64,000 bases of DNA from Castor canadensis. Taxonomy: Eukaryota; Chordata; Mammalia; Rodentia; Castoridae. The stretch is taken from contig NC_133394.1 in the NCBI RefSeq assembly GCF_047511655.1, forward strand, positions 55,894,501 through 55,958,500, read 5' to 3'. A model generated the notes under the pieces. It did not search any database, had not been told where the DNA came from, and saw only the letters and a program-made list of their open reading frames with translations. The position numbers and the translations under genes were made by a program. This document shows positions 33,001 to 61,535 of the stretch, one piece after another (position 1 is the first letter of the stretch; the number at the start of each line of letters is the position of its first letter).

Positions 33001-33049
<49 letters not shown>

Positions 33050-33640: not shown

Positions 33641-33658
33641 TATTAAAATGCATTTGTG

Positions 33659-35216: not shown

Positions 35217-35264
<48 letters not shown>

Positions 35265-35830: not shown

Positions 35831-36400
35831 TAACACATTTTTAATTAAATATGTTTATATATACATCTGTATCTACATAGATATAGATGATATAATTGTG
35901 CAGTTTTTTCCTTTTTATGGAAAGGAGTAGGTTTTCTCTGAGTTTAATGAGTACACTGTGTATTTCACTCTGATTTCTTATCTGGATGCTATCTCTTTTT
36001 AGAGTTGACATCTTGAGCTGTGTGGCAATCAGTGGTTCATGCTCTACTGGACAGGTTTTAGGGGATTACACTCAGGGTTCTTAATTCTAGGCTCTTCTTG
36101 AGGTTTGGGTAGTTGTGGTCAGCTTGTTTGTTTAGCCAGGTGATCTGAAGTGGTCCTGTAAGGAACTGATGTGTTACTTGTGGCGGTCCCTTCAGCATGC
36201 ATTCTAAGCCTGGGAGCTAGGATTAAGCCATTTGGCTTAATACTTTACTCTAGGAAGGCTTTTAGTTTCAGCTCACTATCAGGATTTCCAAGGTTGTAGA
36301 ATGTGGTTTGTCACACAGGATATGACTGGGCCTCCCCTACCACAAACAGGGAATGGCAGTGGAGAACTTGGTAGTGAAAACCTTACAAATCATTTTACCT
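35831..36400. other. No recognised feature
   Basis: Unassigned DNA between the old L1 and the first recognisable unit of the tandem array. The sequence TTTTACCTGAGTTTTGGA near 36397 already matches the array unit start at 39530. Confidence 0.5.
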
Positions 36401-36644
36401 GAGTTTTGGATACTGAATAACTGACTGACAAGTTATGTTTATGCTGTACATTGGCAGGAAAAAGCCAGGGAATCCTAGACTTGATTGACAAGTGTCTGCA
36501 TGCTTTCCTCTTCTTTGGCTTCCTCTTTAATCTGTGCATTTTTATAAAGAGTTTTAAAAATAAGTGCAGAAAGTTAGTTGAATTCATTCTTTGTACAATA
36601 GTGTATAAAGTTGAACAATGCATATGTGTTGGAATTTGTGGGGA

Positions 36645-37125
36645 TACTGAGGTTTGAAATATGAGCCTGGCACTTACTAAGCAGGTACTCTGTCATTTGA
36701 GCTGTGACTGTAGCCTTCTGCATTTTTGCTATTCATTTATCCATTCACTCATTTATTTTTTATTTCATTATTTTTGTAATAGGGTCTCTTACTCTTTGCC
36801 TGCGCAGGCATGGACTGCAATCCTCCTTATATACACTTGTACTTCCTGTGTAGCTGTGAAGAAAGGTTTCTGCCAGCATGTCCAACTTTTATTGGTTGAG
36901 ATGAGGTCTAGCAACTTTTTCCCCGGCTAGCCCTGAATTGTGATCCATGTGATGTCTTCCTTCTGGCTAGCTAAGATAAGATGAGTGACGCCGAGCCCTG
37001 ACTTGTTTGTGTTTTGAGGTAGAGTTTTGCTCTGTTGCTCAGGCTGGCCTGGAACTTGACGCTCATGTCTCAGCCTTCCAAGCACTGGGGTTACAGTTGT
37101 GCTCCATCACACCTGGTGTCAAGTG
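36645..37125 (-). mobile_element. Composite antisense SINEs within array unit 1
   Basis: A tRNA-like half (36645-36715), a castorimorph B1-like half (about 36780-37005) and a second B1-like copy (37010-37125; GCTCAGGCTGGCCTGGAACTTG) lie in a row. Diverged versions of the same composite occur at 39765-40225, 42825-43290, 47160-47760, 54480-55040 and 57640-58105. Confidence 0.7.
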
Positions 37126-38699
37126 TACTTTTTTATTATGAGTTCTTTGGAGATTAATATCAGACATAGTTAAACCTGATTAATGTGCAGTTTAATTATA
37201 ACAAATATTTCTTGAGTGCTTTGCAGCAGGCATTATTAAAGTTTCTGATAATAAAGAAGTGGTCATTGGGGCCCTAGAGAGTATTATGGTAGTGATTCTT
37301 TTGTGTACAAGGCAGCAATTTTCTGAATTCATGTTTTTCTGATGTTCTATGCAAAAATATTTTTTATTTTATGTAAAAGACTAGGAAAGAAGCACTGCTG
37401 ACTCGGTAGTTTTATTTACACTGAATTCAATTATAATAAATATTTATTGTTTTCATTAATAAAGCAGGGAGCTGCTTTAAGGTACATTGGGAAACTAGGC
37501 CTCTTAGAGATGTTAGCATACAGCTTTTCATTGGAAAGATAAAGGCAGAATTTTAAAATTTCATGGTAAGTTAGGAAAATTAATCCTTTAATTGGGGAAA
37601 ATTATGGGAGACATTATTATGGGGGGCAGGAGGGTGGGATTCAGCAGGTTCCTACCCAGGACTTGAATGACACAATTCAGTCTCCCTCCTCCTGATCAGT
37701 GAAGTGCTGGGTTGCTGAAGTTCAGAGCCTTGGCCTCAGTATGGACAGCCACTTTCCTCCAGTGCCCTGGCTGTCACAGCTCCCTTCTAGGAGCTGAACT
37801 ATGTGCATAAGGGAGGATGGCTGGTGGAGGGAGTGGGGGCAGCAGAGCCTGGTGGGGGAAAGGGGCTGCATCAGGCTCAGGTGGTTGCCATCCAGGACTC
37901 TGTGTCCCAGAAGATAAGCAAATGGTGAGGTTGTGGCTGCCTGGCACTCATCAAGGTGAGGAGATGGGTCCCACCTGGCCCGTTCCAGGAGAGTGGTACT
38001 TTTTACCAGTGCATCTGCTTCTGCCTCAGCAGCCTTGGCTTGGTGTCTGTGAGGTTTGGCTTCCTAGGCTGTCTGGTATAGTGGTACCCCTCCCATTGTC
38101 CTTTGCCTCCCACACTTGAACCTGCATTGGAGGTAAGTAAGGGTTCATGAAGGGCTGGGGCAGCCAGTGGCTGGGGACATGATATTTGAGTAGGCCCTGT
38201 GGTGACTTAAGGCATCTAGTTGGGCCTGTGCTGGAAGTAAAGACCAGGCACCAGCTAGATCAGCCATAAACTGCTCTAGCAGCCTGGGAGTGAGGCCAAC
38301 CCACACGTGCTTCACCAAGGGGTGCTTCACCACAGGCAGTGAAGCCTTGGATCCTCCCTTTCTCCTGGCTCAGTGTGCTCACGTTCTGTTGGGTGCTTTG
38401 TGCGACACTGTGAAAGACATCTCCGCAGAAAACAGTGTCTTTGGTTAAGAGGAGATTAATGGAGTGATTGCCTTCAGGAGAGCATCACTTGTCCCTGATT
38501 CCCCCACTGGACTTAGTAAAGTTGACATTGCAAGGGTAAAGGAAAAAATTCTTGTAAAGCAATGGCCAGTATTGCAATGTGTTAAGAGTACAAGTTTCAG
38601 CTGATTTACTTTAGCTAGACAAAAGTTATCAACATAGACAAATTAACCAGAATATTTTTCTTGTGTAACTGTTGAGTGATATGTGGATTGTGTGCACAT

Positions 38700-38885
38700 A
38701 TTATCTCATTTAATCATCAAAAACCCTAGTACACAAGTTCTATTATTATTCCCACTTTACAGATGATATAATGAAAGTCCCCACCTATAAAGTAAGGATA
38801 ACTAGTCCAAAGTCAGAGCTGTGACTCAGCCAGGCCATCTGACTCCTTTAAAGTCCCTTAATCTTTTGTATGTGCTACTGTCCCT
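38700..38885 (-). repeat. MIR within array unit 1
   Basis: ATTATTCCCACTTTACAGATGA, then a run ending in GTCAGAGCTGTGACTCAGCC, is a reverse-complement MIR. The orthologous copy in unit 2 is at 41755-41935. Confidence 0.8.
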
Positions 38886-39301
38886 CTAGCATCTCAAGAG
38901 TGTGTAAGACTATTTTCATTGCGTAAAGTGTGCAGGATGCCCACGATGGAACAGTAAGTAAGGCATCCTCCTTGACGGCAGGAACCTGGCAATTGGATGG
39001 AAAAAGTTTCTTCAGGCCACACTTTTGAGTAAGTTTTAAAGGTAGAAAGTTTCCTGGAGAATCCTCTGATGCCTTCCTCAGTGATTTTGAAACATTTGCA
39101 AGATTTTACTTTGAAAATTATGGTCTTTTCCTAGATTTCTTATTTCTTGCTTTGAAACTTTGAAGGAAATGTAATATTGAACTAATGGTACAATGGTTTC
39201 TGTGTGTGCATTCATGTTTAATCTACTTAGTTTGAAATTGTAACACTGCTAGTAAAGCCAGAACACCCTGTGCAACTAGTTAAAATGTCCTTGTTTTTCA
39301 G

Positions 39302-39386
39302 TTTCTGAAGATCATACATGAAGAAGGACCTTCTGAAGAGAAACGGAAGAAAAACCAGAACACTACAGAATGTGCAAAACATTTCA
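39302..39386 (+). other. Exon-like segment in array unit 1
   Basis: TTGTTTTTCAG precedes an 85-base stretch that reads FLKIIHEEGPSEEKRKKNQN and ends at TTTCA followed by GTAGGTG, a donor-like site. The matching piece in unit 2 (from 42355) keeps the acceptor and reads FLKMKQEDGPSGEKSQKNQ. Lysine- and glutamate-rich, not matched to a known protein. Two copies are too few to prove coding. Confidence 0.3.
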
Positions 39387-39529
39387 GTAGGTGTTTTTGG
39401 CTACAGTTTTTAAAAATCTAATTTCTAGTTTAAGTTCCACTAGGAAGAAAAGCTTCATTTGTGAAACAATCTGTGTGGCCAGGGAATGCCAGCAGAGTAG
39501 TGGATTGAGTAATGTGACCTGCACATCAT

Positions 39530-42500
39530 TTTACCTGAGTTTTGGACTCTTGCTATCTGACTGCCATGTCATGCTTAGGCTGTACATGAGCAGGAGAAAA
39601 CCTGGAAATCCTAGACTTGATTAACAAATGTCTGCATGCTTTCCTCTTCTTTGGCTTGCTCTTTAATCTGCCCATGTTTGTAAAGGGTTTTAAAAATAAG
39701 TGAAAAAATCTGTTGACATTTGTTCTTTGCACAATATTGTGTAAAGTTGGAAGAGGCGGGTACTGGCATTTGAAATCAGGGCCTGGCACTTGCTAGGCAG
39801 GCACTCTGTCATTTGAGCTGTGGCTCTAGCCTGCTTTGTTTTTGCTTTTTATTTATTTATTTACCCATGCATTCATTCATTCATATTTGCTTTCATTATA
39901 TTTGTGATAGGCATCTCAACTTTCTGCCTGGGCAGTCATGGACTGAGATCCTCCTTATACAATTGTGCTTCCTGTTTAGATGTGAATACAGGTTCCTGCC
40001 AGCATGTCAACCTTTCCTTTGTTGAGATGAAGTCTAGCAAAAATTTTTCCCCAGCTAGCCCTAAATTGTGATCCATGAGATGTCTGCCTTCTGGGTTGCT
40101 GAGAGGTGTGACCCTTAGCCTTGACTTCTTAGTTTTTTGAAGTAGAGTTTTTGCCCTGTTGCTCAAGCTGGCCAAGAATTTTGATCTAATGTCGTGACCT
40201 CTCAAGTGCTCCATCACACCTGGATTTAATTATATTTTTGATTATGAATTCTGTGAAAATTAGTATCAGGCATGGCTAAACCTGTTTAAGAAGCAGTTAA
40301 TTTATTTAATAAATGTTTCTTGAGTGCCATACAAGAGGCATTATTTCAAGATTCTGTTAATACAGAAGTGGTCATTGTGGCCCTGGAGAGGACTACATTA
40401 GTAACCATTTCTCCAGAAGGCAGTACTTTTGTGAACTCATGTGTTTTCCTGACTTTACTTGCAAGGATGTTTTTGTTTTATTTAAGCCTTGGGTAAGAAT
40501 CACTAATGGCACAGGTATTTTAGGTACAATGAATTATAATATGTCTTTCTTATTTCCAGTAATAAGTTAGGAATTTGCTTTAATGTACAGTGAGAAACTA
40601 GGGTTCTTCCAGACTTCAGCATACTGTTTTCCATAGTGGAGACAGGGACAAGATTTTAAAATTTCATTGGAGGTCAGCATTAATTCTTTAATTTTCAAAA
40701 ATTTGGGAGACATATATGTGAGTGAAGGAGTACAGGGCTGGGCAGGTTCCCTGTCAGGGCTTGAGTGAGGTAAATTAGGTGCCAGGTCCTCAGCAAGGAC
40801 TCCCCTTCTGCTCGACTCCCCTGTCTGTCAAGGGCCCTTCCAGGAGTGTATGAACCAGGTGTGGCTAAGGGGAGGCAGATGGAGTGGTAACCTGCAGGGC
40901 TGGGGACCATGTTGGACTCAGGGTTGTGGCCTCAGGAGATATGTGATCCCTGAGAAAAGCAGAGAGGTCTCAGCTGCCTGGCACTGACTGAATGAGTGGA
41001 TAGATCCATCCTGGCCCAGTCCAGTTTGGCAATACCTTTTCTTTATGCTTCTGGGCATTAGCATCTTTTTGTTGATTTGAGAGTCTGATAAGATTCTCTT
41101 TCTCCTCCACCTGCTGTAGTGATGACTTCTCCTTGTGTCATCACTTGTATCACAAGGAACTGCGGACCAGTGTCAGACATCAGTAAGGGATATTGGAAGG
41201 GTGGTGGGAGCCACTGGTTGGGGACCATGCTGCATTGGGCCTTCCTGGGATGTTAAGACAGCATGGTGGGCCAAAGCCAGCCTGCCAGTGCTTGTGTGAA
41301 GGATCAGGAATCCAGAGGTAGGTCGTGAGGCTCTTTAGCACACTGGAAGTATACCTCCCGAGAGGGTGCTTCACTCAGGGACACTTCACCTCAAGTGGGG
41401 AAGCCTTAGAGCCTCCCATGCTCCTAGTTCATTAGCTATATGTGCTTTGGTCCTCATGGGTATTGCACAACACTCAGTGGAAACAGTGTCTTTTGCTCAG
41501 TGAAGGTGAAGCCAAGTCATTGCCTTCAGGAGAATTATAATTGTCCTGACTCCACTCACCTTCAGCCACAAATGGACTTACTGTTGACAGTAGAAAGGCC
41601 AAGATTTCCTGCAAAGCTGTCATGAGATTTACAATGCCTAAGAGTAAACATTTCAGCTGAGGTAGTTTAATTAGACAAAAGTATAAATACATATAAATTA
41701 ACCAGGATAGTTTTCTTGTGTAATTATTGAGTGGTGTGTGGATTGTGTACATAGGGTATCTCACTGAATCATCAAAAACCCTATTAAGTAAACTATATTA
41801 TTATTCCCATTTTACAGATGAGAGAATGAACACACACAGTTCAAATGGAAGGGTAACTTGTCCAAAGTCAGAGTTGTGACTCAGCAGAACCCTGACCCTT
41901 AACCTGGTAGATGCTATACCATTGCTCTAGCATTTCACGTGCTTGTAAGGGGATTTTCATTTGGTAAAGAGTCTGGAAGAGGAGAGAAAGTAAAGCACCC
42001 TCTTTTATCATAAAGGACCCAGCAATTTGGTAGGAAAAAGTTTGTCTGGATTATATTGTAGAGTTACTTGTAAAGAAAAGAGTTTTCTTCCAGAATCCTC
42101 TAACTCCCACCTCATGCTCTGTCCATAGGACAGTGAATTTGCAACATTTGGAAGATCTCACTTTGAAAATCATTGCCCACTGCTCCATGTAGCATGGATT
42201 ATTTAGAAACTTGAAGAAGAAATGTACTATTGGACTACAGGTCTAATAGTTTCTGGGTGGGTTTTCATGTTCAAATTACTTCATTTGAAATGGTAACACC
42301 GCTAATGGAGGCAGAATACATTGTCTAATTGGGGAAAATATTGCTGCTTTTCAGTTTCTTAAGATGAAACAGGAAGATGGACCTTCTGGTGAGAAAAGCC
42401 AAAACCAGATCATTTCAGTCTCTGACAAGAAACACTTCCATGGGGAATTTAGCTATGATTTTTAAAAACTAATATCTAGTTTAAGTTCCAACAGAAAAAA

Positions 42501-42589
42501 AGGTGATTTCTGCTTCACTTGTAATACAATCTGTGTGGTTAGAAATAGTAGTGAGTGGAGGATTGGGTGGTGTAATGTGACCTACACAA
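39530..42589 (+). repeat. Macrosatellite array, AT-rich unit 2
   Basis: Same layout as unit 1: start at ACCTGAGTTTTGGACTC, antisense SINE composite, M segment 40240-41420 (GTACAGTGAGAAACTAGGGTTC, ATTAATTCTTTAATTTTC), tail with MIR 41755-41935, exon-like piece 42355. Unit length is about 3.06 kb. It is clearly homologous to unit 1 but with many differences and indels. Confidence 0.85.
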
Positions 42590-45390
42590 AATCGGACCTG
42601 GGTTTTGGCTTTTGAAATCTGACTGCTAAGTCATGCTTAGGCTATAAAGCCTGGAAATCCTAAAGTTGATTAACAAGCGTCAGCATGATTTTCTCTTCTT
42701 TGACTTGCTCTTTAATCTGCCCATGTTTATAAGGGTTTTAAAAATGAATGAAGACAGTCAGCTGACTTTTGTTCTTTGCACAATATTGCTTATAGATGAA
42801 CTATATGTGTTTTGCGTGAAGGTATTGATACTGGCCTTTAAAACCAGGGCCTGGCACTTTCTAGGTAGGTACTCTAGCTGTTGAGCTGCTTCCCCAGGCC
42901 TTTTTGTTCTTTGATATGCATTTATGTATTTATTAATTTATTTTTTCTTTCCTTATTTTCTTCATAGTATGTCTCACTTTTTGCCTGGGCAGGCATGGAC
43001 AGAGATCCTGCTTATATACACTTTCTGTTTCCCGTGGAGCTCTGGTGACAGGTGCCTGCCACCGTGTCCAACTTTTCTTGGTTGAGGTGAGGCCTAGAAA
43101 AATCTTTGACCCAGCTGCCTTTGAAGTGTGATCCTCTCTATCTCTTCCTTCTGATTATCTAAGATTAAAAGTGTGAGCCCTGGACCAGACTTGTTGGCTT
43201 GAGCTCAGGCTGGCTTGGAACTTGGGATCCTTGTGCCTCAGACTCCCTAGTGCTGGAACTATCAGTGTACTCCATCACACCAGGCTTTAAGTGCCTTTAA
43301 ATGTTTTTTTACTTTCTTATTAAGAAATATTAGTTGTAAAGGGGGGATTAATTGGGACAATTCCCTATTGTCTTATGTTGTACATTAGTTAGCTCACCAT
43401 CACCATCCCTCCTCCTGCACCCCTCCTGTACCCCTCCCTCCCCAGTTAAAGAAATTACAAGAGGTTTCTTGGTTCTAATTCATAGAATTAAGTGAAGTCT
43501 AACATCCACCTTGTATCCTCACCTTAATCTCTGTCATTCACCCTCCTTCCTCAGAACCCTCCCCATACATACACTGTGACTATTTATAGTCCTGTCTTCA
43601 TTATTAATATTTAAGTAGATGTTCCAAAGGGTTTCTCAATGTGTCACAACTGTGGGTCTACTCTATTTTGCTCCCTTCAACCCCTTTCATTGTTTTCCAT
43701 TACCCTTTTCCTTTCCCCATCCCATTTGCAATAGCTTTCAATACATATCTATATCCTCTACCTTCACAGATACTATGTTTTACTACATGTTGAGGCCCTA
43801 TCATTCTCTTTTCCCTTCCTTCCTTCCTAGAGTTTCATAGAGTAGTTCCTTCAGTATACTTTTTATTTTGAGTTGTGAGGACATAAGTAGAAGACATAGT
43901 AAAACCTATTTAAGAAGCAGTTACTCATTTAAAATGTTTCTTGAGTTCCATACAGCAGGCATTATTTCAAGCTTCCATTAATACAGAAATACCAATTCTG
44001 GCCCTGGAGAGGATTACAGGTGTAACCCTTTCTCTAGAAGACAGTACATTTGTGAATGTGAATTCATACATTTTCTGATTTTACATTCAAGGTTATTTTT
44101 GCTATTTTTAAAACACTAGATAAGAAACACTACTCACTTGATTATTTTATGTACAATGAATTTTATTATACTGGGTCTTTCTTATTTACAGTAATAATAC
44201 AGGGATCTGCATTAACATGCAGTGGGAAATGGGGGTTCTTCCATAATTTAGCATATTGTTTTTCATAGTGAAGATAGTGACAGGATTTTAAATTTTCATG
44301 GGAGATTAGGACCATTAATTCTTTAATATTTGAAATTTTGGGAGACATGATTATGGGGGGGCACTAGAAGGTTCCTTGTCAAGGCTTGAGCGATGTAAGT
44401 CTGAGTCCCTGGTCATGACCTGTGAAGTGCTGATTTGGGGCAATGCTGATCTGTGGTCTGTCCTCAGACTACCCTCTCATCCGCTTCACTGGCTGTCAAG
44501 GCCGTTCCAGGTGCTGAACCAGGAGCAGCCCAGTGGATGTCGAGTGGAGGGAATGGGCACATGCAGAGCTGGGTGCGTTGGCTGCAGCAACCAGGGACTT
44601 GCGATGCCTGAGACAAGCAAAGAGGTCTCAGCTGCCTGGCACATACTTAAATGAGGACATGGGTCCCTCCTTACCCAGTCCAGGTGGGCAGTACCTATTC
44701 TCTGTGCTTCTAGACATTAGCAGCTTTTTGTTGACATGGAAGTCTGATAGGATTCCCTTCCTTAGCTGCCTGCTGTGGACCGGTGACTCCTTATCCTTTG
44801 CATCATGGAAACCCGAGGACCAGCATCAGAGGATAGTAAAGGGGCTTGGAAGGTCAGGGGCAAACAGTGGTTGGAGACCCAATGCTGGAGTGGCTTCTCT
44901 TGGAAAGGTGAGGAGCTGGGTGGCCCAGAAGTGGCCTGCCACTGCTTATGGGAAGAGCCAGGAACCCAATATGTAGAACAAGACCCTTTAAAGCAGTCTG
45001 GCAGTATGGCTTCCCAGCACTGGCTGCATTCAAGGTCACTTCACCTAAGGGGGGATGCCTTGGAAACTTCCAGTCTCCTAGCTCACGAGAATGAGTCTAT
45101 GGGTTCCCAAGGCTCCCTAAATGCAACATTCAGGAGAAACAGTGTCCTTTCTTCACAAGGGGTGAAGCCAAATCAGCCTTCAAGAGTTTCATTGTCCTGC
45201 CCGACCAGCCAGGATTTAATGTTGACAGTAGAAAGGGTAAGGGCAAGTTTGCAGCAAAGCAATTATGGGTTTGGTCATGACAATTGGAAAAAAATTCAGC
45301 TGTGTTTAAAAAGGCAAGAATAAATACATATATATTAACCAGGATAGTTGCCTTGTTTAAGTATTGAAAGGTATGTGTATTGTGGGCATA
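42590..45390 (+). repeat. Macrosatellite array, AT-rich unit 3 (truncated tail)
   Basis: Starts at ACCTGGGTTTTGGCTTT, with the SINE composite to 43290, a retroposon at 43322-43862, an M segment 43863-45080 and the first part of the tail (CAACATTCAGGAGAAACAGTG...TATTAACCAGGATAGTT). At about 45390 it switches straight from the tail to a new M segment (GGTACAGTGGAAAACTAGGG). This is an unequal-exchange or deletion junction and marks the start of the GC-rich part. Confidence 0.85.
43322..43862 (-). mobile_element. Purine-rich retroposon (L1 3'UTR-like), antisense copy in array unit 3
   Basis: Reverse complement of the element at 29620-30180, with the same blocks in order. A strongly altered, GC-richer relative seems to be present in the right-hand units near 47990-48370 and 52270-52640 (CACTCACCCTCC...TACCCGA), and another near 59260-59650. 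Confidence 0.7.
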
Positions 45391-46368
45391 GGGTAACTGA
45401 AAGGTACAGTGGAAAACTAGGGATTTGGTGGACTTTAGCATGTACTTGTTGGTAGAAAAGTTGGGGTCGGGGAGGCTTGGAAAAAATTAATTCTTTAATT
45501 TTTAATATTTCAGGGAGACCTATCAGTAGGGGAAGAGGGCACGCCTGTGGTAGCAAAGGGGCTGAGAGGAACTGAACATGCATTGGGGTCGGAGGACGCT
45601 TGGAAAACATGAATTCTTTAAATTTCCAGGCTTGGGGAAGACGCAGTCATGGCGGAGGAAGGCAGGGCTGAGCAACTTCCTTGGCTGCTGGGTTCCAGTG
45701 AGGTCAGTCAGGTGCGCTGGCCCAGGTCTGTGAAGGGTTGTCTGGCTGGGTTTGTGCACTGCTGAGGCAGTTGTGGGCAAGGGACTCCGCAGCACCCTCC
45801 TGCTGGGGATCTCTTGGTGTTTAGCATGCACTTGTTGGTAGCAAAGGTGGGGTCGGGGAGGCTTGGAAAAAATTAATTCTTTAATTTTTAATACTTCAGG
45901 GAGACCTGTCATTGGGGTCGAGGGCGGGGCTGAGCAGGTTCCTTGGCTAGTGGGTTTGAGTGAGGTCAATGAGGTGCCCTAGCCCTGATCGGTGGGCTTG
46001 TGCAGTGCAGAGGCAGTTATGGGAATTGGAGTCCCATGCCCCTGTACTGGGCATCCCCTGGCTGTCTGTGGACTTGCTGGCAGTTGAAGCAGCAGTTGGG
46101 GCTGGGGCAGAGGAATGGATGACAGGAGGAGGGAGAGGGGGCTCCTGCAGAGCTGGGGGGGGCGGAGTTGGGCTCCAGGTCCCTGCAGACCACCCAAGCC
46201 TGGAGGTCTCCTGGAGAACTGGGGAGAGGTGTGGGGCACCTGTCAATCTCCCAGATCTGGTCTGGGTCTCCCCAGGCCAGCCAAGTTCAGGTGGGAGAGA
46301 CCTTTCCCCAGTGCATCTGGGCTTGTGCAGCCAGGACTGTGGGGTCTGACAGGAAATTCTCTTTGCAG

Positions 46369-46466
46369 GCTGCTGGCTGCCATAGGGAATAGTCCCTGTG
46401 GCCTTTGCAGCCCTGAGCTGAGTGGCCTCGCGCGCGGAGCTGTGGACCGAAGGACCTGCGTGGCGG
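46369..46466 (+). other. Repeated exon-like segment in CpG core, unit A
   Basis: TTCTCTTTGCAG at the left and GGTAAGTAAC at the right make consensus-quality 3' and 5' splice sites around 98 bases. The segment contains GGCCTCGCGCGCGGAGC. The same arrangement recurs at 56913-57010 and, as a longer 122-base form, at 50681-50802 and 53930-54051. Splicing is inferred, not shown. Confidence 0.45.
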
Positions 46467-46675
46467 GTAAGTAACGGGGACCCAGATGGGCTGCGGCTAT
46501 GCAGGACGTTTGGGCAGCTGTGCAGCTCGGCGGGCCGGCATCGCCAGCGCAGCGCGACCCATGCTGGCGGGAGGGAAGGACCAGGCAACCCTGCTGGGGC
46601 TGTAGCAAACCTTGCCATAGTGGCAGGCCTGTGAGGGCGGCAGCGGCGCGAGGGCAGCAGCGGCCTCGTGGGCGT

Positions 46676-46770
46676 CGGCGGTGGCGGCGGCGGCGGCGGC
46701 GGCGGTGGCGTCGGCATTGGCGGCGGTGGCGTCGGCGGCGGCGGCATTGGCGGAGGCGGTGGCTGCAGCC
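46676..46770 (+). repeat. GGC/GTC-type trinucleotide repeat
   Basis: An imperfect GGC tract (GGTGGCGGCGGC and similar, with GTCGGC and ATTGGC interruptions) in the CpG core of unit A. The matching site of the near-identical unit at 57220-57255 has a tract shorter by about 85-90 bases. Long poly-Ala, poly-Gly and poly-Arg frames here are by-products of the repeat. Confidence 0.9.
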
Positions 46771-47304: not shown

Positions 47305-47380
47305 CGTATGTATGTATGTATGTATGTAGGTAGGTATGTATGTATGTATGTGTTTGCTATCGTGTGCATGCATGTATGTA
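47305..47380 (+). repeat. (GTAT)n microsatellite
   Basis: A GTAT tract with GTAG variants. The matching tract at about 57774-57833 differs in length. Confidence 0.9.
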
Positions 47381-51075: not shown

Positions 51076-52147
51076 TGTAGAGAGGTCTTTCACATCTTTT
51101 GTTAGGTTTACACTTAGGTATTTGATTTTTTTTTTTTGAGGCTATTGTAAGGAATTGTTTTCATACATTCTTTTTCCGTTTGCTCATTGTTAGTGTATAG
51201 AAATGCTGATGATTTTTCTATGTTGATTTTATTTCCTGCTACCTTGCTGTAGCTATTGATGATGTCTAGAAGCTTCTGAGTAGAGTGTTTTGGGTCTTTA
51301 AGGTATAGGATCATGTCGTCTGCAGATAGGGATATTTTGACAGTTTCTTTGCCTATTTGTATTCCTTTTATTCCTCCTTCTTGCCCAATTGCTCTGCCTA
51401 GGAATTCCAGTACTATGTTGAATAGGAGTGGAGACAGTGGGCATCCTTGTCTGGTTCCTGATTTTAGAGGGAATGGTTTCAGTTTTTCTCCGGGAAGTGT
51501 AATGCTGGCTGTAGGTTTGTCATATATAGCTTTTATCATGTTGAGGAACTTTCCTTCTATTCCTAGTTTTCTTAGAGCTTTTATCGTGAAATGACGTTGG
51601 ATCTTATCAAAGGCTTTTTCTGCATCTATTGAGATGATCAAGCGGTTTTTGTCTTTGCTTCTGTTAATGTGGTTTATTACGTTTCTTGATTTTCGTATGT
51701 TGAACCACCCCTGCATCCCTGGGATGAAGCCTACTTGCTCGTGGTGAATAATCTTTTGGATGTGTTGCAGAATTTGGTTTGCCATTATTTTGTTGAGGAT
51801 TTTTGCGTCAGTGTTCATTAAGGAGATTGGGCTGTGGTTCTCCTTTTTGGAGGTGTCTTTGCCTGGTTTTGGGATAAGTGTAATACTGGCTTCATAAAAT
51901 GTGTTTGGCAGTTTTCCTTCGCTTTCTATTTCCTGGAACAGTTTAAGGAGGGTTGGTATCAGTTCTTCTTCAAAGCTCTGATAGAATTCAGCAGAGAATC
52001 CATCAGGTCCTGGACTTTTCTTTTCGGGGAGACTCTTGATTGCTGCTTCAATTTCATGTTGTGTTATAGGTCTGTTCAGGTGATTAATTTCCTCTTGGTT
52101 CAGTTTTGGATGATCATATGCATCTAGAAATCTGTCCATTTCTCTAA
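51076..52147 (-). mobile_element. LINE-1 internal ORF2 fragment (reverse transcriptase) inside the array
   Basis: Antisense L1 without 3' UTR or A-tail. A single frame of 341 codons (51114-52139) is open from [20 protein letters not shown] through [16 protein letters not shown], the reverse-transcriptase region and [15 protein letters not shown] to [13 protein letters not shown]. The catalytic FADD is SADD here. Edges do not show a target duplication. It sits where the sister unit has its SINE composite, so about 1 kb of unit was lost and L1 sequence took its place. The open frame implies a recent event, but the fragment is only part of ORF2. Confidence 0.88.
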
Positions 52148-52925
52148 AATCGGCCCGTGGGGTCCACTGGTTTGACTGTTCCCCCCACCACCCCCCGCCT
52201 CCTTAGGGGTCCCCTACAGACCCACTTAAGGCAAAGCTCTGGCCGGAAAGTGTCTCTTTTCTCTTTCTCACAGGTATAGGCAGTGCAGTCCCTCCTGGAA
52301 TATAGCCTTCTCTACTCGCCCCCATTCACCCTCCCCCGTGCCACAAGTACCCGACCACACACAGGCTGTCCCTATTGCACAGACCTGTCTTCCTTATGGA
52401 GGTCAGTGTGAATGTACCATGGGCTTCCTCACCGTTTCCCTGCAGGGAGTGGACTTCACCTCTCTGTGGTCACCTCCTCACCTTGCTCTCCCTTACCCTC
52501 TGACCTCCTGCCCTTGCGTTTTCAGGACTTAGACTACATAGGCTGCTCCTAGGCTCCCCCAGCAGGGTTGTTTGTTTGAACCTTATCCTGGATGCTCCCC
52601 TTCCTTTTTCCAGGGCCTCCCCCACCCCACCCCCCACCACCACGGAGACGTCCAAACAGTGTTCTGTGCTTTTGCTTCCTTAAGTGTGCATTTCAATTCC
52701 TTCTTCTCTAGGTGGTCCTAGAATCTGTTGGCACCACTGTGGAAGAAGCAGTGTGTACATTTCAGAGCCCGGGCCCAGAGACCCCCTGTCCCCTTTGTAT
52801 TTGAGGCTCCCCAAGGGTGTGGTTAAATTGTACTTTTATTCCTCTACTTCCCTCCGTATGCGTGTTAATTCGTCCTTGTCTGGACTTCCCTAGTCGAAAT
52901 CATGGTCACCGCTCTTGAAGAAGCA
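52148..52925 (+). repeat. Remainder of unit C (retroposon-derived GC-rich tail)
   Basis: Matches 47878-48470 of unit A (GGGGTCCACTGGTT, CAGGTAT.GGCAGT, TACCC near 52350, TTTCCCTGCAGGGAGT). It joins unit D at about 52926. Confidence 0.7.
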
Positions 52926-55180
52926 GTGACCATACATTGAAGTCATGGTGCCCCACCCCCCCCCCACCCTCTCCCCGCCAGACTAGCAGACACCATGCAC
53001 TCTTGGCATTTCTGAGTTCCTACAGCCACATGGGGTCCTTGTGGCCCTCCAGGGTTGTAAAGCAGGGATCCCTCAGAGTAGATGGCCGAGCTTTGGCCAA
53101 CTCATCTGTTTGCCTGCTTTTGCATGCAGGGATGGGGTTGCGTGGTTGCCAAGACGTGGCGATAGGAAGCATCACTCGGAGGCCCGTTTCACGTAGAAGG
53201 AGTTTTATTTTACTACCCTGGGATGACTTCCTTCGTCATGCATGGATCTGCTCTAAGGTGAGGTGGGGACAGTAGGGATCTCCTGGAGTTTAGCGTGCAG
53301 GTGTTGGGAGCAGAGGGGAGAGGAGGATTTGAAAATGTCGTGGGAGTGTGGGGCCCCCTTGGGAAGAATTAATGGTTGAATTTTGACAACCTCAGGGAGA
53401 CCTAGGCATTGGGGGAGGAGGGCAGGGCTGAGCAGGTTCCTTGGCTGGTGGGTTTGAGTGAGGTGAGGCAGGTGCCCTGGCCCTGATCTGTGAAGTGCTG
53501 TGTTTGTGCACAGCAGACAGAGGCAGTTTTGGGCAGTGGATCCCACCAAGCCTCTCTTCCCTGCCTCCTGGGCTGGCCCTGGCTGTGAAGGGCCCTGCAG
53601 GGAGTTGAGGGGAGGGCGGGGTGGGGGTGGGCCAGGGGAGTGGATGGCAGTTGGAGGGAGGTGGGCCTCTGCAGAGCTGGGGGGCGGAGTTGGGCTCCAG
53701 GTTGCTGCAGGCCACCCAAGCCCGGCCCTCTCCTGGAGAGAGGCAGAGTTTTGTAGGGCGCCTATGGCTCTTGCTGTGCCAGATCAGAGATCAGAGTTGG
53801 GTAATTCCAGGCAGGCCACGTCCCGGTGGGAGGAAAGTGTACCCTCTCCCCCCCGCCCCACCCCCGTGCAGCTGGGCAGCTGGGCTCTCCGCAGCATGAA
53901 GCTGTCTTCTGACAGGCTTGTCTTTGTAGGCTGCCTGCCGGCCGCCTGCGAAAGTCCTCCCTGGGGCCTTTGCCCTCCGGAGCTGCCAGGCATCGCGGGC
54001 GCGCCCGCGCGCGCACACAGAGGACCTGCGAACCCACCAGCTTCTTGGAGGGTGAGTGAGCGAGGGGACCCGGCCGGGTGGGCTGCAGCAGCCAGGGCTT
54101 GGGCCCTCAGCGCTGTGGAGCGGGCCGCGTGGGGGAGGACGTTCGCGCAGCTCCGTGTGCCAGAGCCACCGGCGCTGGGAGAGCCGTGCTGGCGGGAAGG
54201 CGCCTGCACCCGCTGGGGCGGTGGCGAACCTCACTAGCGGCCGGCCCTGGAGGGAGGCGGCGAGGCAGGCGCTTCAAGGCGGCTTGCCTGCGGCCGGCCA
54301 GGGGTTTGTGTCAAGTTGCCAAGTATTCGGAAGCCTGTCAACCTCCAGGTGAGTTCCCTCTCCTAGCTTGCTTGTTTGCTTGCTGGCTTGCTTGCTTGCC
54401 TTCCTGGCTTTGCTTCTGGGTCCAATTCTGCCTCTGGATGAGATGTGTTGGTTTGTGTGAGGGGCAGAGAAATGGGTTTCCAATGAGGGCCAGGCATTTT
54501 GTAGCTTAGCAGTCTGTTCTCGCAGGGGAACCCCTTAGACCTTTGAGCGGTGTGTTACTTTCTCCCGGACCGACACCTCCGTTTCTTTTTTTATGCATTT
54601 GGGTCTTTGTGTATTTCTGTAACTAGGTATGTAGTTGTAAAGGTGTTGGTGGTCCTAGGTACACGTAGGTATGTATTCCTAAGTCGGTTCTCTGATGGAG
54701 ATTGGTTTGGTATTTTCAGGCGAGCGACTGTACCTTTGGGCCTGGGCAGTCATGGACAGTGACCGTCCTCCTGACCACTCTGTGCTGCCTGGGAAGCTGC
54801 GGTGACAGGCGCCTGCTGCCCCGCGCAGCAGGTTTTTCTCCTTGAGGTCATGGTAGCAAGGTTTTTGCCTCAGACCCCTTGAACTGTGATCCTGCCTTTT
54901 GTCTGCCTTCTGGGTGTCTGGGATTCTTGGCCTGAGACCCTGGAGGGGACTTGTTGGATTTTCGAAGGAGAGTGTTGCCCTGTAGCTCATGCTGACCTGG
55001 TAGCTAGGGTCCCCCTGTCTGAGCCCCACAGGTGCAAGGAATGACATGTGTGTGCCCTCCTTGCTGGCTTTAGGTGTGTTTTCTGCTTTAGTAGCTTAGT
55101 TTGTTACTTTGTTGTTTTTCACTGGGATAGATTCTGTGTGGAGGGGGGGTGTCACGGGGGTGTGGGTGTGATCCATTTTA
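52926..55180 (+). repeat. Macrosatellite array, GC-rich unit D (second subfamily)
   Basis: Same order as unit C, with M segment, CpG core near 53925-54250 and then a preserved SINE composite (54360-55040). The right end is interrupted by an L1 3' end. Confidence 0.85.
53930..54051 (+). other. Repeated exon-like segment in CpG core, unit D
   Basis: 122 bases between TTGTCTTTGTAG and GGTGAGTGAG. The splice sites are kept relative to unit C although bases around them differ. The segment is among the most CpG-dense of the window (GCGGGCGCGCCCGCGCGCGC near 53995). Confidence 0.45.
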
Positions 55181-55189
55181 AGAATTCTT

Positions 55190-55618
55190 TTTGTGTTCTT
55201 TTTCTTTTATTATTCATAGGTGCATACAAGGCTTGGTTCATTTCTCCCCCCTCCCTTACCACCCACTCCGCCCCCTCCCTCAATACCCAGCAGAAACTCG
55301 TTTGCCCTTATTTCTAATTTTGTTGTTGGGAGAGTATAAGCAATAACAGGAAGGGACAAGGGTTTTTGCGGGTTGAGATAAGGATAGCTATACCGGGCAT
55401 TGACTCACATTGATGTCCTGTACGTGGGTGTTACCTTCTAGGTTAATTCTTTTTGATCTGACCTTTTCTCTGGTACCTGTTCCCCTTTTCCTAGTGGCCT
55501 CAGTTGCTTTTAAGGTATCTGCTTTAGTTTCTCTGCGTTAAGGGCAACAAAAGCTAGCCAGTTTTTGAGGTGTCTTACCTATCCTCACCCCTCCCTTGTG
55601 TGCTCTGGCTTTTATCCT
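55190..55618 (-). mobile_element. LINE-1 3' end (5'-truncated)
   Basis: Antisense copy of the young L1 3' UTR. It begins at the poly(T)-like TTTTTCTTTTATTATTCATA and contains GTGCATACAAGGCTTGG, CAATACCCAGCAGAAACT and AAGGTATCTGCTTTAG. It matches 22489-22928 closely and ends at CTTTTATC before array sequence resumes. Confidence 0.88.
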
Positions 55619-58105
55619 CACAGGTATAGGCAGTGCAGTCCCTCCGGCATATAGCCTTCTCTACTCACCCCCATTCACCCTTCCTCGGGGCTGAGCACAT
55701 TCCTTGGTTAGTGGGTTTGAGTGAGGTCAACAAGGTTCCTTAGCCCTGATCGGTGGGCTTGTGCAGTGCAGAGGCAGTTATGGGAACTGGAGTCCCATGC
55801 CCCTGTACTGGGCGTCCCCTGGCTGTCCGTGGACTTGCTGGCAGTTGAAGCAGCAGTTGGGGCTGGGGCAGAGGAATGGATGACAGGAGGAGGGAGAGGG
55901 GGCTCCTGCAGAGCTGGTGGTTTTGCATTGTTGGCAAGTTCTAGTAAGAAACACCACTCAGAAGCCAGCGTCGTTCTCAAGCTATTTTATTATAGTCCAC
56001 CTGGATGACTTCCATCGTCATGCAGGGGCAGGGTCCTGTTTTAAGGTACAGTGGGATACAAGGGATCTCTTGGGGTTTCGCTTGCACTTGGTGGTAGCAA
56101 AGGGGCTGAGAGGAACTGAACATGCATTGGGGTCGGAGGACGCTTGGAAAACATGAATTCTTTAAATTTCCAGGCTTGGGGAAGACGCAGTCATGGCGGA
56201 GGAAGGCAGGGCTGAGCAACTTCCTTGGCTGCTGGGTTCCAGTGAGGTCAGTCAGGTGCGCTGGCCCAGGTCTGTGAAGGGTTGTCTGGCTGGGTTTGTG
56301 CACTGCTGAGGCAGTTGTGGGCAAGGGACTCCGCAGCACCCTCCTGCTGGGGATCTCTTGGTGTTTAGCATGCACTTGTTGGTAGCAAAGGTGGGGTCGG
56401 GGAGGCTTGGAAAAAATTAATTCTTTAATTTTTAATACTTCAGGGAGACCTGTCATTGGGGTCGAGGGCGGGGCTGAGCAGGTTCCTTGGCTAGTGGGTT
56501 TGAGTGAGGTCAATGAGGTGCCCTAGCCCTGATCGGTGGGCTTGTGCAGTGCAGAGGCAGTTATGGGAATTGGAGTCCCATGCCCCTGTACTGGGCATCC
56601 CCTGGCTGTCTGTGGACTTGCTGGCAGTTGAAGCAGCAGTTGGGGCTGGGGCAGAGGAATGGATGACAGGAGGAGGGAGAGGGGGCTCCTGCAGAGCTGG
56701 GGGGGGCGGAGTTGGGCTCCAGGTCCCTGCAGACCACCCAAGCCTGGAGGTCTCCTGGAGAATTGGGGAGAGGTGTGGGGCACCTGTCAATCTCCCAGAT
56801 CTGGTCTGGGTCTCCCCAGGCCAGCCAAGTTCGGGTGGGAGAGACCTTTCCCCAGTGCATCTGGGCTTGTGCAGCCAGGACTGTGGGGTCTGACAGGAAA
56901 TTCTCTTTGCAGGCTGCTGGCTGCCATAGGGAATAGTCCCTGTGGCCTTTGCAGCCCTGAGCTGAGTGGCCTCGCGCGCGGAGCTGTGGACCGAAGGACC
57001 TGCGTGGTGGGTAAGTAACGGGGACCCGGATGGGCTGCGGCTATGCAGGACGTTTGGGCAGCTGTGCAGCGCCGCGGGCCGGCATCGCCAGCGCAGCGCG
57101 ACCCATGCTGGCGGGAGGGAAGGACCAGGCAACCCTGCTGGGGCTGTAGCAAACCTTGCCCTAGTGGCAGGCCTGTGAGGGCGGCAGTGGTGGCGAGGGC
57201 AGCAGTGGCCTCGTGGGCGTCGGCGGTGGCAGCAGCGGCGGCGGCAGCAGAGGTGGCAGTGGCGGCTGCGCCTCTGGGGCCCCGCAGGCCCTTCACCCCG
57301 GGTTGCTTCAGGCCAGGCGCTTGGTTCAAACTCCTAGGACTGGCAAGCCTGTGAGCCTCCAGGTCAGTTCCCTCTCCTAGATTGCTTGCTTGGGTTGCCT
57401 TGTCTTCTAATGGGTCCCCAGGGCTCCTGGGCTGTTTTTGTTCCTGGACTGTTTTGTACATGTGGCAGGATGCTTTGCTCTTCTTTGGCTTGTTCTATGA
57501 GTCTGTGCATGGTTCCAAGGCGCTTTGAATCCTGAGTGAATGGAGAAAATGTGTTGAGTCTGGTTTTTTGCACAATTCTGCATATGGATGTGTGAAGTGT
57601 GTTGGGTTTTGGGAGGGACTGAAAAAGGGTTTGAAATCAGGGCCAGGTGTTTTCTAGGTGAGCCCTGTATTCCTCCAGGGAGACCCCTTAGACCTTTTGA
57701 GGCTTTTGTTATTTCCCCCCCACACCCAGCCACCTTTCTTAATTTCTTGACCTTTTTAGACCTTCATCGTTCACGTATGTATGTAGGTATGTATGTATGT
57801 ATGTGTTTGCTATCGTGTGCATGCATGTATGTATCCCTTTATTCACTTCTCTGATTAAGGTTTCTGTGGTCTTTTTGGGTGGGGTGGGGCTCTCTTCCTT
57901 TGGGCCTGGGCAGTCCTGCACAGTGACCCTCCTTCTGAACATTGTATGCTGCCGGGGTAGCTATGGTGACAGTCGCCTGCTGTTGCCATGTGCAACTTTT
58001 GTTCCTTGAGCTGCATTGTAGCAAAGTTTTAGCCTCAGCTTCCCTTGAACTGTGCCTCTGCCTTTTGTCCCTCTCTGGGTAGCTGAAAACCTAGGCCTGA
58101 GACCC
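55619..58105 (+). repeat. Macrosatellite array, GC-rich unit E
   Basis: A partial M segment (55686-55916, matching 45915-46157) breaks at GCAGAGCTGG and is followed by a second, complete M segment from 55917 that matches 48672 onward. The CpG core, short GGC tract, SINE composite and GTAT tract follow. From 56095 to 58105 it is nearly identical to unit A; I see only a handful of substitutions over the first 900 bases, plus repeat-length changes. Confidence 0.88.
56913..57010 (+). other. Repeated exon-like segment in CpG core, unit E
   Basis: 98 bases between TTCTCTTTGCAG and GGTAAGTAAC, almost the same as in unit A (46369-46466). Confidence 0.45.
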
Positions 58106-59220
58106 TGGACAGACCTGTGTGGCGGGTAAAGAATGGGGACCCGGATGGGCTCCAGCATCCCGGCGCACATGCCTTGGCCTGCCTTACACCAAGACAGCCA
58201 TGTGTGCCACAGGGCTCAGCAGAGGCTGATGGAATGGGGCGGCAGCGGCTGTCCTTCTTCTGTGCTGGCAGCTCTAGTGGCAGTCGTGGCAAGAATCTCA
58301 CTTGTACTTCTGCACAGTGGGTCAAGCCTGCCGAGTTCGAGATGAAGTTGCAGGTGGAGACGGAGGTGACCTCTGAAGACATCCTTGGTGAATTTCCTGG
58401 GTCCCTTGGGGTTTCTGCCTTTGGGCTGTTGAGGAAGTGGGAAGGACACTGCGGGGGCTTCTAGGGGGCGGCCAAGGGATTAGTTGGTCCCCTGGTGGAA
58501 AGGGATAGAGGGAGACAGGGATGCTGGAAACGCTGGGCTGAGGGGCCCGGGCCCTGCCCCCGGTGCCCCCAGTGACCCCAGTCCAGTACTGCCGGTGGGC
58601 AAGCTCGTCCCCGCCGGCTTATCCCAGCCAGGGGCATGAGAGTTCCCCCGCACAGACTTTGGACCCGCCTTGCCAGAAAAAGTGTCGCAGTCCCTTAGGG
58701 CTCTAGGCTAGGAAGCAGTGGCCAGAGGGTTGTGCAGAATGGACTTAGAGCCCGGAGCCTGCAAGGAGGCCTTACGCACAGTTTCCCCTGTGGACCATGA
58801 GGAGATCCGGGCCAGGACTGTCTGCCAAGCAGCTGCCTCCCAGGCTGTCCAGGCCCCTGGCCCTGTGGGTGGGCAGAGGGAACTTCGGTGGCCGAGAAGG
58901 GTCGAATGATCCTGACCACTAGGGGCAGGCTTGCCCTCCTCCTCTCCACACTCCCTTCACCTGGCCTGACAGAGGGCCATGCCATGCCTGGGCTTTGGAC
59001 TCTCAAGGGTGGCCAGGGTGCGGGTTCCCAAATGTTGTCGCCAGATACGTTTTAAGGGATGGATACTTTCTCTGCACGGTTGGAGGTGGGCGTAGCGATT
59101 GGTAGTGGGAATTCCAACAAGGTTCTGGGGTACATTGCTTCCATTCCCCCCCAGGGCCTCTCCCCTTCCATGCCCTAGCCCAACCCCCACCACGTCTCAA
59201 GTTGTTCCTTTTTCATCTGT
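58106..59220 (+). repeat. Array end region, first copy of an exon-like module
   Basis: 58158-58545 is homologous to 60941-61331. The module has a stretch reading RQRLSFFCAGSSSGS and, later, PAEFEMKLQVETEVTSEDIL, ending at CATCCTTG followed by GTGAAT, a possible donor at 58388. The second copy has GTGAGT there. Comparing the two, replacements are common in this frame, so coding is not supported. The rest to 59220 is unassigned GC-rich DNA. Confidence 0.55.
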
Positions 59221-59259
59221 CCCGTGCGGATATGCGGTCCATCCATCACCACCTCTCAC

Positions 59260-59650
59260 TCTGGTCTCTTTCACTCACCCTCGTTCCAGTCAGAAGTAGC
59301 CCAGCGATCCCCTGCCATCAACCCTCATGACCCCCACCCCCACAAGCACACACTCATGCACGCACACATACACAGGCACACACTTCTCCGTTTATTGTCG
59401 CTTCTTTCCTCCTTCCTTTTCAGGAGGATGTGTCAAGGGGTTTCTTCTCTTGTTCCCACTGTTGGTCTGCTTTGGTCCCTTCAACCCCTTGCATTGCTCT
59501 CCCTTTCCCTTTTCTCCTCTCTTCCCCGCAGTAGTCAACAGCCCTCAAATACACATCCTCCTGTCCTCTGCCTGCCCTGCGTTTACATCTCTTGAGTGTG
59601 CCGAAGCTCTGTCGTCCTCTTTTCCTTTTCGTCCTTCCTCGGTTCCCAGC
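59260..59650 (-). mobile_element. Degenerate relative of the purine-rich retroposon
   Basis: GGGGTTTCTTCTCTTGTTCCC, GTCCCTTCAACCCCTTGCATT and TTTTCCTTTTCGTCCTTCCTC follow the order of 43630-43825 with a GC shift. Low confidence in the boundaries. Confidence 0.5.
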
Positions 59651-61535
59651 ATGCAGTTGTACTGTCAGCAACCTGTTCCACGTAGCAGATGGTCCCCCGT
59701 CATCATGTGCGCCTTCATCCACGCCTTCAAGTGCTGGATCTGTGCCCTTTGTGTTCCTGAGCCTGGCTTCCTCACGTTCACGTGGTGTGCCCAGACTGCA
59801 GCCATTGCAGGTCACCTTCGGTCTTCCTCCCAAAGATTTCAACCTGCACCGCGTTACAGCATGGCACGTTTTGTTGCTCCGTTCCTCAGCAGGAGGCCTT
59901 GAGGGTGGTTTCCCTGGCATGGGTTCGGTGAATAGCGCTGTGCTCATCATGGTCATGCAGGTTTTTCGGTTTCATATTGGCTTGGGGTCCTTCGGCTGCA
60001 CGCCCGGGGGATCTCTCCATGTATCATCTGGCGTTTCACTCTTTGGCAGGAAGAGAAATCTCCGCCCTGCTTCCCATCATGATTTTCGTGGTTCAAGTTG
60101 GCACAGAGTGTGCGCAAGTGTCACTGCCTGGCGGAATGTGGGCGAGCATTTGCGGCTGTCAGCATGGGTCCGGAGACTGTCCCCTGATGTGATCCAGTCA
60201 CCGTTTAGGGGACTCAGATTTATTCCGTGGTCACGCTTCTCCCGTGCCGTGTGAACTGAGCAGGAAGAGTGCATGCCCACGGGCAAAGGCACACACACAC
60301 ATGCAAACAAGCCGAGAGTAATAGCGTTTTGGTGCTCCTTCTCATCCCAGCTCGGCCGACTAGAGCACGGCCGATGCTGTGTAAGGATCTGAGTGAGTGG
60401 GAAGTTGTAAAAGAGGGAATGTTCATCAGGCTGCACATTTGCTGGATGAACAGCGTGCAGGCCATGGGGTGGTGGTGCCCCGGTGTCCTTGGCGTGCCTC
60501 TGTGCTGGAGAGGAGGGTGGGCTGCAGGTCCGTGAGTCCTGCCCTGCATGGAAGTGGGGAGGGATGTGTTGGGCTTGTGTGACGTGTGGTGGCACTGTGT
60601 CAGGGCAGTGGATCAGGGGGATGTCTGTGTGGGAGCGCAGCAGCCACGCAGCCGTAGGTCGTGGCTGCGACCACAGCAGGCTCACTTGCGCCCCAACCCA
60701 CCCTGGCCCCCCCAGCCTTCTGTGCCTGTTGGATTCTCGACACCTTGCCAGACACGTCGAAATGCCCGAGGGTTCGCAAGTGGGAGTGTGTGGGGTGGCC
60801 GAGGGGAGGATTGTCCCACCACATTCATGATGCGTGAGGGTGGCCGGCCATCCCAGTAGCCCATTGTTTTCTGGCGCCTTCTGCCCGCCACTCTGGCCAT
60901 CCTCTTGGCCCGGCTTCATTCCCACCCAGCGCTGCCGGTGTCCCGGCGCTCGTGCCTTGGCCTGCCTTAAGCCAAGGACAGCCAGGTGTGCCACAGGGCT
61001 CAGCAGAGGCTGATGGAAGGGGGCAGCAGCGGCTGTCGTTCTTCTGTGCTGGCAGCTCCAGCGGCAGTGGCGGCAAGGATCTCACTTGCACTTCTGCACC
61101 GGGGGTCGCGCCTGCCGAGTTCGAGATGGAGTCGCAGGTGGAGATGGAGGCGACCTCTGAAGACATCCTTGGTGAGTTTCCCGGTTCCCTTGGGGTGTCT
61201 GCCTTTGGGCTGTTGAGGAAGTGGGAAGGACACTGCGAGGGCTTCTAGGGGAAGGCCCAGGGATTAGTTGGTCCCCTGGTGGAAAGGGGTTGAGGGAGAC
61301 AGGGATGCTGGAAACTCTGGGCTGAGGGACCCACGTGTGGTGGCACTGTGTCAAGGCAGTGGATGAGGGGGATGCCCCCTCAAAGCAGGTCACCTTCGGT
61401 CTTCCTCCCGAAGCCCTCAACCTGCACCACGTTACAGCATGGCATGTTTTTTCGCTCTGTTCCTCAGCAGGAGGCCTTGAGGGTCGTTTCCCTGGCATGG
61501 GTTTGGTGAATAGCTCTGTGCTCAGCACGGTCAAA
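59651..61535 (+). repeat. Array end region, second and partial copies
   Basis: 60941-61331 repeats the module of 58158-58545. 61333-61380 repeats 60580-60625 (GTGTGGTGGCACTGTGTCA). 61387-61530 repeats 59808-59955 (CAGGTCACCTTCGGTCTTCC, TCAGCAGGAGGCCTTGAGGG). At about 61535 the GC-rich DNA stops and AT-rich DNA begins. Confidence 0.75.

Follow-up and report, generated by a model that had tools for sequence, protein, structure and literature searches.

A degenerate macrosatellite relative in the beaver genome, with AT-rich and GC-rich units that appear to have met opposite fates

How can a single tandem repeat be AT-rich at one end and CpG-rich at the other? The question is raised by a repeat block at 36.3-58.2 kb of a 64,000-nucleotide stretch of the genome of the beaver Castor canadensis, hereafter the window (C9:55894501-55958500; host genome 2.81 Gb in 181 contigs, given here with the prefix C), for which a sequence-only reading had proposed a degenerate macrosatellite. 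We find that the two halves are opposite fates of one repeat family. Taken as a whole, we judge it probable that the block is a degenerate macrosatellite member, that part of the family decayed towards AT while another part was shifted by GC-biased conversion, that a further branch expanded into live arrays, and that the units of these live arrays would have a promoter role.

Three AT-rich units (AT1-AT3) occupy 36347-45400, as expected from the sequence-only reading, with a period of ~3.1 kb and pairwise identities of 68-73% by self-BLAST and profile. To their right lie four GC-rich units (A-D), one fewer than had been counted, several of which are 97-98% alike (45547-46724 and 56091-57266, for example, are 98% identical). 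The proposed compositional split is pronounced, with a GC content of 41-42% and a CpG observed/expected ratio (o/e) of 0.06-0.12 in the AT units, versus 54-60% and 0.31-0.40 in the GC units; TpG/CpA ratios are 1.18-1.29 and 1.18-1.33, respectively. The unit contains an antisense composite of what we take to be short interspersed elements (SINEs) and a segment termed M. The array and its right-hand neighbour comprise:

36347-39479, plus strand: AT-rich unit AT1, GC 42%, CpG o/e 0.11 (self-BLAST, profile, composition)
38068-38132, plus strand: exon-like block of AT1 with both splice signals (alignment, coordinates checked)
39480-42553, plus strand: AT-rich unit AT2, GC 41%, CpG o/e 0.06 (self-BLAST, profile, composition)
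42554-45400, plus strand: AT-rich unit AT3, cut at model position 2360 (profile, composition)
About 43301-43840: insert within AT3, with a relative at 29704-30173 (self-BLAST)
45401-48620, plus strand: GC-rich unit A, with three partial M-segment repeats and a GGC tract (self-BLAST, profile)
46369-46466, plus strand: exon-like block in the CpG island of unit A, TTTGCAG / GTAAGT (alignment, coordinates checked)
46986-47765: SINE composite of unit A
48621-51067, plus strand: GC-rich unit B, with M segments and CpG island (self-BLAST, profile)
50681-50802, plus strand: exon-like block in the CpG island of unit B (alignment, coordinates checked)
51071-52131, minus strand: fragment inserted in unit B, which we take to be L1 (L1-like open reading frame (ORF), self-BLAST copies, polarity counts)
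52152-52900, plus strand: continuation of unit B beyond the L1, with homology to the live unit and to 47893-48471
52901-55150, plus strand: GC-rich unit C, nearest to the live unit at 80-86% (self-BLAST, profile, live-unit comparison)
53930-54051, plus strand: exon-like block in the CpG island of unit C (alignment, coordinates checked)
55188-55616, no strand assigned: inserted repeat between C and D, with relatives at 22473-22930 and 23590-23970, present also in the C9:58.12 Mb array
55617-58184, plus strand: GC-rich unit D, which matches A at 98% across 1.18 kb (self-BLAST, profile)
56913-57010, plus strand: exon-like block in the CpG island of unit D (alignment, coordinates checked)
58121-61535, plus strand: GC-rich module of a different repeat family outside the array (self-BLAST, profile, genome search)

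A profile built from AT1-AT3 recovered 13 stretches of the GC-rich half (E 4.5e-63 to 2.1e-8) and one further stretch only at E 4, whereas reversed sequence from the GC half and from 1-35 kb gave nothing at E values as high as 10, bearing out the claim that the halves are related. The matches in the GC half alternate between the M segment (model positions 920-1978) and the SINE composite (143-792), with short pieces within these ranges; weak matches in 1-35 kb (at 11-17 kb) all lie inside the SINE part of the model. Because the homology includes more than 1 kb of M segment, a shared SINE insertion alone is insufficient to explain it. The landmark order said to be common to both halves thus holds for the SINE composite and the M segment, and fails for the model tail with its presumed MIR-like segment, which is absent from the GC units. 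The profile places the left limit at 36347, close to the 36397 first given, whereas the family ends at 58184 and not at 61535: no AT-model match lies to the right of 58184 in the window, and 58158-59150 belongs to another multi-copy repeat. We regard it as extremely improbable that two known repeats without kinship simply adjoin here, or that the window array is mis-assembled. In favour of such a reading, plain BLAST at E 1e-10 lists just one inter-half match (67.5%), but the profile homology extends to the M segment outside the SINE with clean reversed controls, and the same AT/GC junction recurs in copies at C13:101.27 and 101.74 Mb. The block at 36.3-58.2 kb is a real tandem family spanning its AT-rich and GC-rich halves.

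A homogeneous relative of this family is present in the same genome. A search with window unit B (40 of 229 candidates scored) returned rows, at 79-81% identity to that unit, ~3,169 bp apart at C9:61.90-62.03 Mb and ~3,145-3,174 bp apart at C9:62.91-62.98 Mb. The live unit is 3,169 bp long, with two neighbours 99.84% identical, a GC content of 58% that peaks at 72-75% around an island, 108 CpG and a CpG o/e of 0.41. The first live array extends over C9:61898127-62053825 (155.7 kb, 49.1 units; ~30 kb were read in four pieces, L033-L036, and the rest is inferred from word spacing), and its edges are sharp, with AT-rich DNA immediately outside. A 31-base word of the unit occurs at 154 places in the genome at no more than 3 mismatches (136 forward, 18 reverse) and at none in both controls; among the matches listed, exact copies number 46 in the first array, 49 at C9:62.473-62.628 Mb, one at C9:62.829 Mb and four on contig C123. 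A second live array is located at C9:62.47-62.63 Mb.

Kilobase units arranged head to tail are found both in the degenerate window array and in the live arrays. The first live array is also long and homogeneous, as expected of a macrosatellite, whose arrays run to tens or hundreds of kb; the window array spans ~22 kb and is not, at 68-73% between its AT units. Window GC units B and C are 79-86% identical to the live unit, and the window array is accordingly a degenerate relative of a live macrosatellite 6 Mb away on the same chromosome. It is the presence of this homogeneous relative, with its 154 unit-word sites, that bears out the term degenerate macrosatellite. The 9 kb and 7 kb read beside the first live array hold no satellite-like array; a pericentromeric setting is a guess from positions. 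In the portions of the open-licence literature available to our search, including those of the beaver genome paper (PMC5295618), we found no description of the live family, which appears to be a new macrosatellite with an unusually complete record of its decay.

The two live arrays (C9:61.898-62.054 and 62.473-62.628 Mb) are nearly equal in size, at ~155 kb and ~49 units each. Given these like lengths, they may be copies of each other.

We next consider what distinguishes the units. In a copy at C13:113.42 Mb (L031), the M segment forms a sharp CpG island (GC 64%, o/e 0.71) within an otherwise AT-rich unit, and the corresponding CpG-island/exon module of the AT units is decayed (o/e 0.07-0.15). 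Alignment of the M segments reveals an exon-like block between a pyrimidine-AG and a GTRAGT motif. Both splice signals are present in all eight CpG-rich units scored (window A-D, L031, the C9:58.12 forward unit, the C9:67.87 unit and the live unit), versus one of five AT-type units: AT1 has the pair, the first C3 unit the donor only, AT3 and the other C3 unit the acceptor only, and AT2 neither (Fisher p = 0.007; 0.015 when A/D and B/C are each counted once). The splice-signal coordinates of the window and live units were checked separately; in the live unit as read in L033, the predicted exon spans 1086-1206. Of the CpG-island function that had been suggested for the right half, the shared island with paired splice signals is observed; promoter activity would be a further, putative step.

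A cluster of protein-coding genes with CpG-island promoters would also display islands and splice signals, and ORFs in the live unit reach 327 codons. We consider such a cluster very unlikely, however. A longest ORF of 327 codons was equalled or exceeded in 35 of 200 shuffles, and indels in the M segment are mostly not multiples of three and hence frame-breaking (12/18, 15/19, 6/11, 5/8, 11/14 and 11/13 in six pairs). Pfam (E up to 1) finds no family in the six frames of one live unit or in ten window ORFs; zinc-finger-linker, KRAB and olfactory-receptor motifs are absent from 316 kb of locus sequence. Given the frame-breaking indels, the ORF within shuffle range and the absence of Pfam matches, the exon-like block is non-coding as far as tested. 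Among known RNAs, Rfam at gathering thresholds reports only a U1, which lies outside the array.

Three specific gene candidates were rejected as well. Among 150 of 922 KRAB candidates scored, none fell at the C9 or C13 array loci, which speaks against a KRAB-zinc-finger cluster there. The 10 kb downstream of the C13 amplicon unit yielded L1 domains and a DDE_1 transposase remnant in place of a gene, together with two further matches under their cut-offs. For a coding exon in the AT-unit tail (39302-39388), conservation was not clearly above the surroundings.

To ask why the GC half is GC-rich, we made use of the SINE composite, which occupies an equivalent position in both unit types and for which independent SINE copies give the starting state. 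Relative to the majority consensus of nine such copies, AT-to-GC changes per site amount to 0.12-0.20 in eight AT-type copies and 0.26-0.35 in eight GC-type copies (0.35 in the live unit), and GC-to-AT changes to 0.25-0.34 and 0.22-0.29, respectively. Pooling AT1-AT3 against window A, window C and the C9:67.87 Mb unit gave 49/332 versus 112/339 AT-to-GC changes (p = 2.7e-8) and 102/385 versus 92/383 GC-to-AT changes (p = 0.46). Without CpG-prone columns, the AT-to-GC difference persisted (36/270 versus 82/276, p = 3.9e-6; GC-to-AT p = 0.26). The L1 that inserted later into unit B at 51071-52131 has 35 AT-to-GC and 11 GC-to-AT changes, and its C13 copy 31:7, whereas five L1 copies outside the arrays have 10:15, 12:14, 30:37, 63:77 and 35:22 (pooled 150:165; p = 0.0004 for 35:11 versus the pool).

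These counts bear directly on an account by loss only, in which the ancestral unit was CpG-rich throughout and the AT half lost its CpGs by methylation and deamination. The low CpG o/e of the AT units (0.06-0.12) and their TpG/CpA ratios of 1.18-1.29 would fit such loss, as would the 80 CpG sites of the L031 island, only 1 of which is still CG in the window AT units and 28-32 of which read TG/CA there, versus TG/CA in 20-22 in the GC units. But TpG/CpA is likewise 1.18-1.33 in GC units, the GC-to-AT rate of the SINE is equal in the halves, the excess of AT-to-GC changes in GC units is found also outside CpG-prone columns and recurs in the later-inserted L1, and the C13 unit that carries a CpG island is AT-rich in its SINE and tail. 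We hold loss only to be improbable, and as the sole cause of the AT/GC split it is largely refuted. The split has two causes: decay of the CpG island in AT units and GC gain in GC units.

Selection on a regulatory or RNA function could keep GC content high with no biased conversion. It would be consistent with the island and its paired splice signals in eight of eight CpG-rich units scored, and with the abrupt change of GC at the edges of the first live array. The AT-to-GC excess in an unrelated L1 insertion, where selection on unit function is unexpected, and the only moderate conservation among CpG-rich lineages make it unlikely in our view. Since the bias reaches an unrelated insert, GC-biased conversion in a homogenising repeat, rather than sequence function alone, is the best-supported candidate cause of the composition of the GC half; it is one of the two possibilities that the sequence-only reading had suggested from the split itself.

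Several observations weigh against the overall interpretation. Splice signals were scored by eye and on aligned units only; splice-site conservation among CpG-rich lineages is an unremarkable 0.68-0.71, and the best-conserved stretch over all 15 pairs (live-unit 771-860, 0.75-0.80) is not the splice sites. (A value of 0.85 is seen at live-unit 1551-1580, from 6 of 15 pairs.) The GC units retain CG at just 7-10 of the 80 L031 CpG sites and read TG/CA at 20-22, so that their islands have turned over too. The SINE baseline is a majority consensus of nine copies, and units are kin within groups, so that the p values are optimistic. The window and C13 L1 copies represent one insertion event, and one outside L1 copy (L031, 35:22) is itself GC-leaning. 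For the small insert at 55188-55616, counted where two outside relatives agree, the ratio is 14:4, and 11:5 for the same insertion in the GC-rich C9:58.12 Mb array; yet the outside relatives are AT-leaning in one case (1:6) and GC-leaning in the other (8:3), and changes found solely in the C9:58.12 copy are balanced at 3:3. The small insert is therefore weak support for GC-biased conversion. The SINE and L1 tests carry the argument.

Relatives of the array occur throughout the genome. The unit start word has 51 sites at no more than 3 mismatches, versus 3 in a control. C13:101.266-101.286 Mb corresponds to window 28004-41511 at 97.5% and, after an intra-array deletion, rejoins the window from 45304 onwards through the same AT/GC junction, which is also found in its inverted counterpart at C13:101.742 Mb. 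Copies at C9:32.5 and 51.4 Mb match window 35892-44575 at ~78% in opposite orientation with the AT1-AT3 order kept, indicating that the three-unit order is old. A query containing most of AT2 (40 of 141 candidates scored) gave at least 51 matches, among them ten of equal score on C13:113-117 Mb and four small contigs, and pieces of 66-75% on C1, C3, C7, C8, C10 and C17; a 6-kb stretch at C3:96.05 Mb, read entirely, contains AT-type units.

The C13:101.27 and 101.74 Mb copies form an inverted pair ~0.47 Mb apart, with window flank and a shortened array. One CpG-island unit is present in ten copies, nine of them with equal score, that are 100% identical across 1.1 kb and lie in either orientation (C13:113.30, 113.42, 113.45, 115.59, 115.72 and 117.65 Mb; C32, C36, C50 and C60), with a 98% copy at C9:53.41 Mb. 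The ten are either very recent amplicons or assembly duplicates.

D4Z4 is CpG-rich, and the sequence-only reading had likened the block to D4Z4 and DXZ4. The likeness is one of form. The human DXZ4 unit has 2,994 bp, a GC content of 62% and 186 CpG, versus 3,169 bp, 58% and 108 here, and the two also share internal simple repeats and an uninterrupted homogeneous array (PMC3218863). By the same account, human DXZ4 is stated to be unique to its X location apart from microsatellites, whereas the present family has dispersed degenerate copies on several chromosomes (PMC3218863). The live and window arrays are, unlike DXZ4, autosomal: the androgen receptor N-terminal domain lies on C20 and the arrays on C9, not X, which rules out an X-linked ampliconic family. 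With D4Z4, described as a 3.3-kb macrosatellite (PMC4278900) whose repeats hold the DUX4 retrogene (PMC12376486), the resemblance lies in unit size and array form; unlike D4Z4, the live unit yielded no homeobox or other Pfam domain. By homeobox and X-linkage, the family belongs to neither D4Z4 nor DXZ4. Human macrosatellites are described as large tandem units with a largely unknown role (PMC3018141); the family here resembles them in its large tandem units, and differs from what is described there in its graded series from live to decayed units within one genome.

DXZ4-like CTCF sites were sought with a consensus motif, and nothing convincing emerged in the window array (none with at most 1 mismatch; 13 with 2 mismatches versus 6 reversed) or in the live unit (one site with 1 mismatch).

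The neighbouring GC-rich module at 58.12-61.53 kb has an internal duplication (58158-58548 and 60941-61332, 91%). A genome search with 58158-59150 (40 of 57 candidates scored) returned at least 58 matches, 45 of these on C14 at 24.97-37.72 Mb, in places spaced ~2.8-3.0 kb apart; the remaining copies lie on C9 (the window, 36.9, 51.2-51.3, 58.17 and 64.2-64.3 Mb), at C1:105.98 Mb and at C13:104.29 Mb. Array pieces lie ~20-90 kb away from those at C9:36.9, 51.2-51.3 and 58.17 Mb and on C1, so that segmental duplications seem to carry the two repeats together. On C14, a chromosome rich in KRAB matches, the repeat forms tandem-like clusters. Its two window copies share an open frame inside ORFs of 125 and 136 codons, for which Pfam has no match.

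Elsewhere in the window, a full-length U1 small nuclear RNA match lies at 33658-33817 on the plus strand (Rfam, 113.4 bits versus a gathering threshold of 69.5). The C9:32.5 and 51.4 Mb copies align up to 33658 and resume at 33827, with a 15-base target overlap, and the U1 looks like a retro-inserted copy with target-site duplication, younger than the C9:32.5/51.4 duplication. Inverted L1-like arms (21697-22462 and 22826-23589) are 96% identical around a spacer of ~0.36 kb.

Together, these data suggest the following history. A macrosatellite family that probably belongs to the beaver lineage, built of units of ~3.1-3.2 kb, would count the block at 36.3-58.2 kb among its members, degenerate and segmentally duplicated. 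The family's unit comprises the SINE composite in antisense and the M segment, which bears the CpG island and exon-like block; AT-type units add an MIR-like tail. In the AT-rich subfamily, the island would have decayed and the splice signals mostly been lost; in the GC-rich subfamily, the island would have been kept under ongoing homogenisation, and GC-biased gene conversion tied to it would have shifted the whole unit and its inserted elements towards GC. One branch would have expanded, elsewhere on the chromosome, into the live arrays, whose near-identical units most likely would act as multi-copy CpG-island promoters for a spliced non-coding RNA. Conversion as the cause, transcription and any function of the units we infer from sequence features. 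A bolder possibility, to which we give a low probability, is that the live arrays are a rodent autosomal functional counterpart of DXZ4/D4Z4, composed of germline-hypomethylated CpG-island promoter and exon units that yield spliced repeat RNA, act as a chromatin boundary and stay alike through GC-biased conversion, with the window array having fallen out of the conversion pool.

One genome thus holds the same 3-kb unit in several states, as live arrays, as scattered GC-rich copies, as decayed AT-rich copies and with later insertions, so that what concerted evolution does to base composition could be measured directly. The family also adds a probable rodent autosomal case to the CpG-rich macrosatellites.

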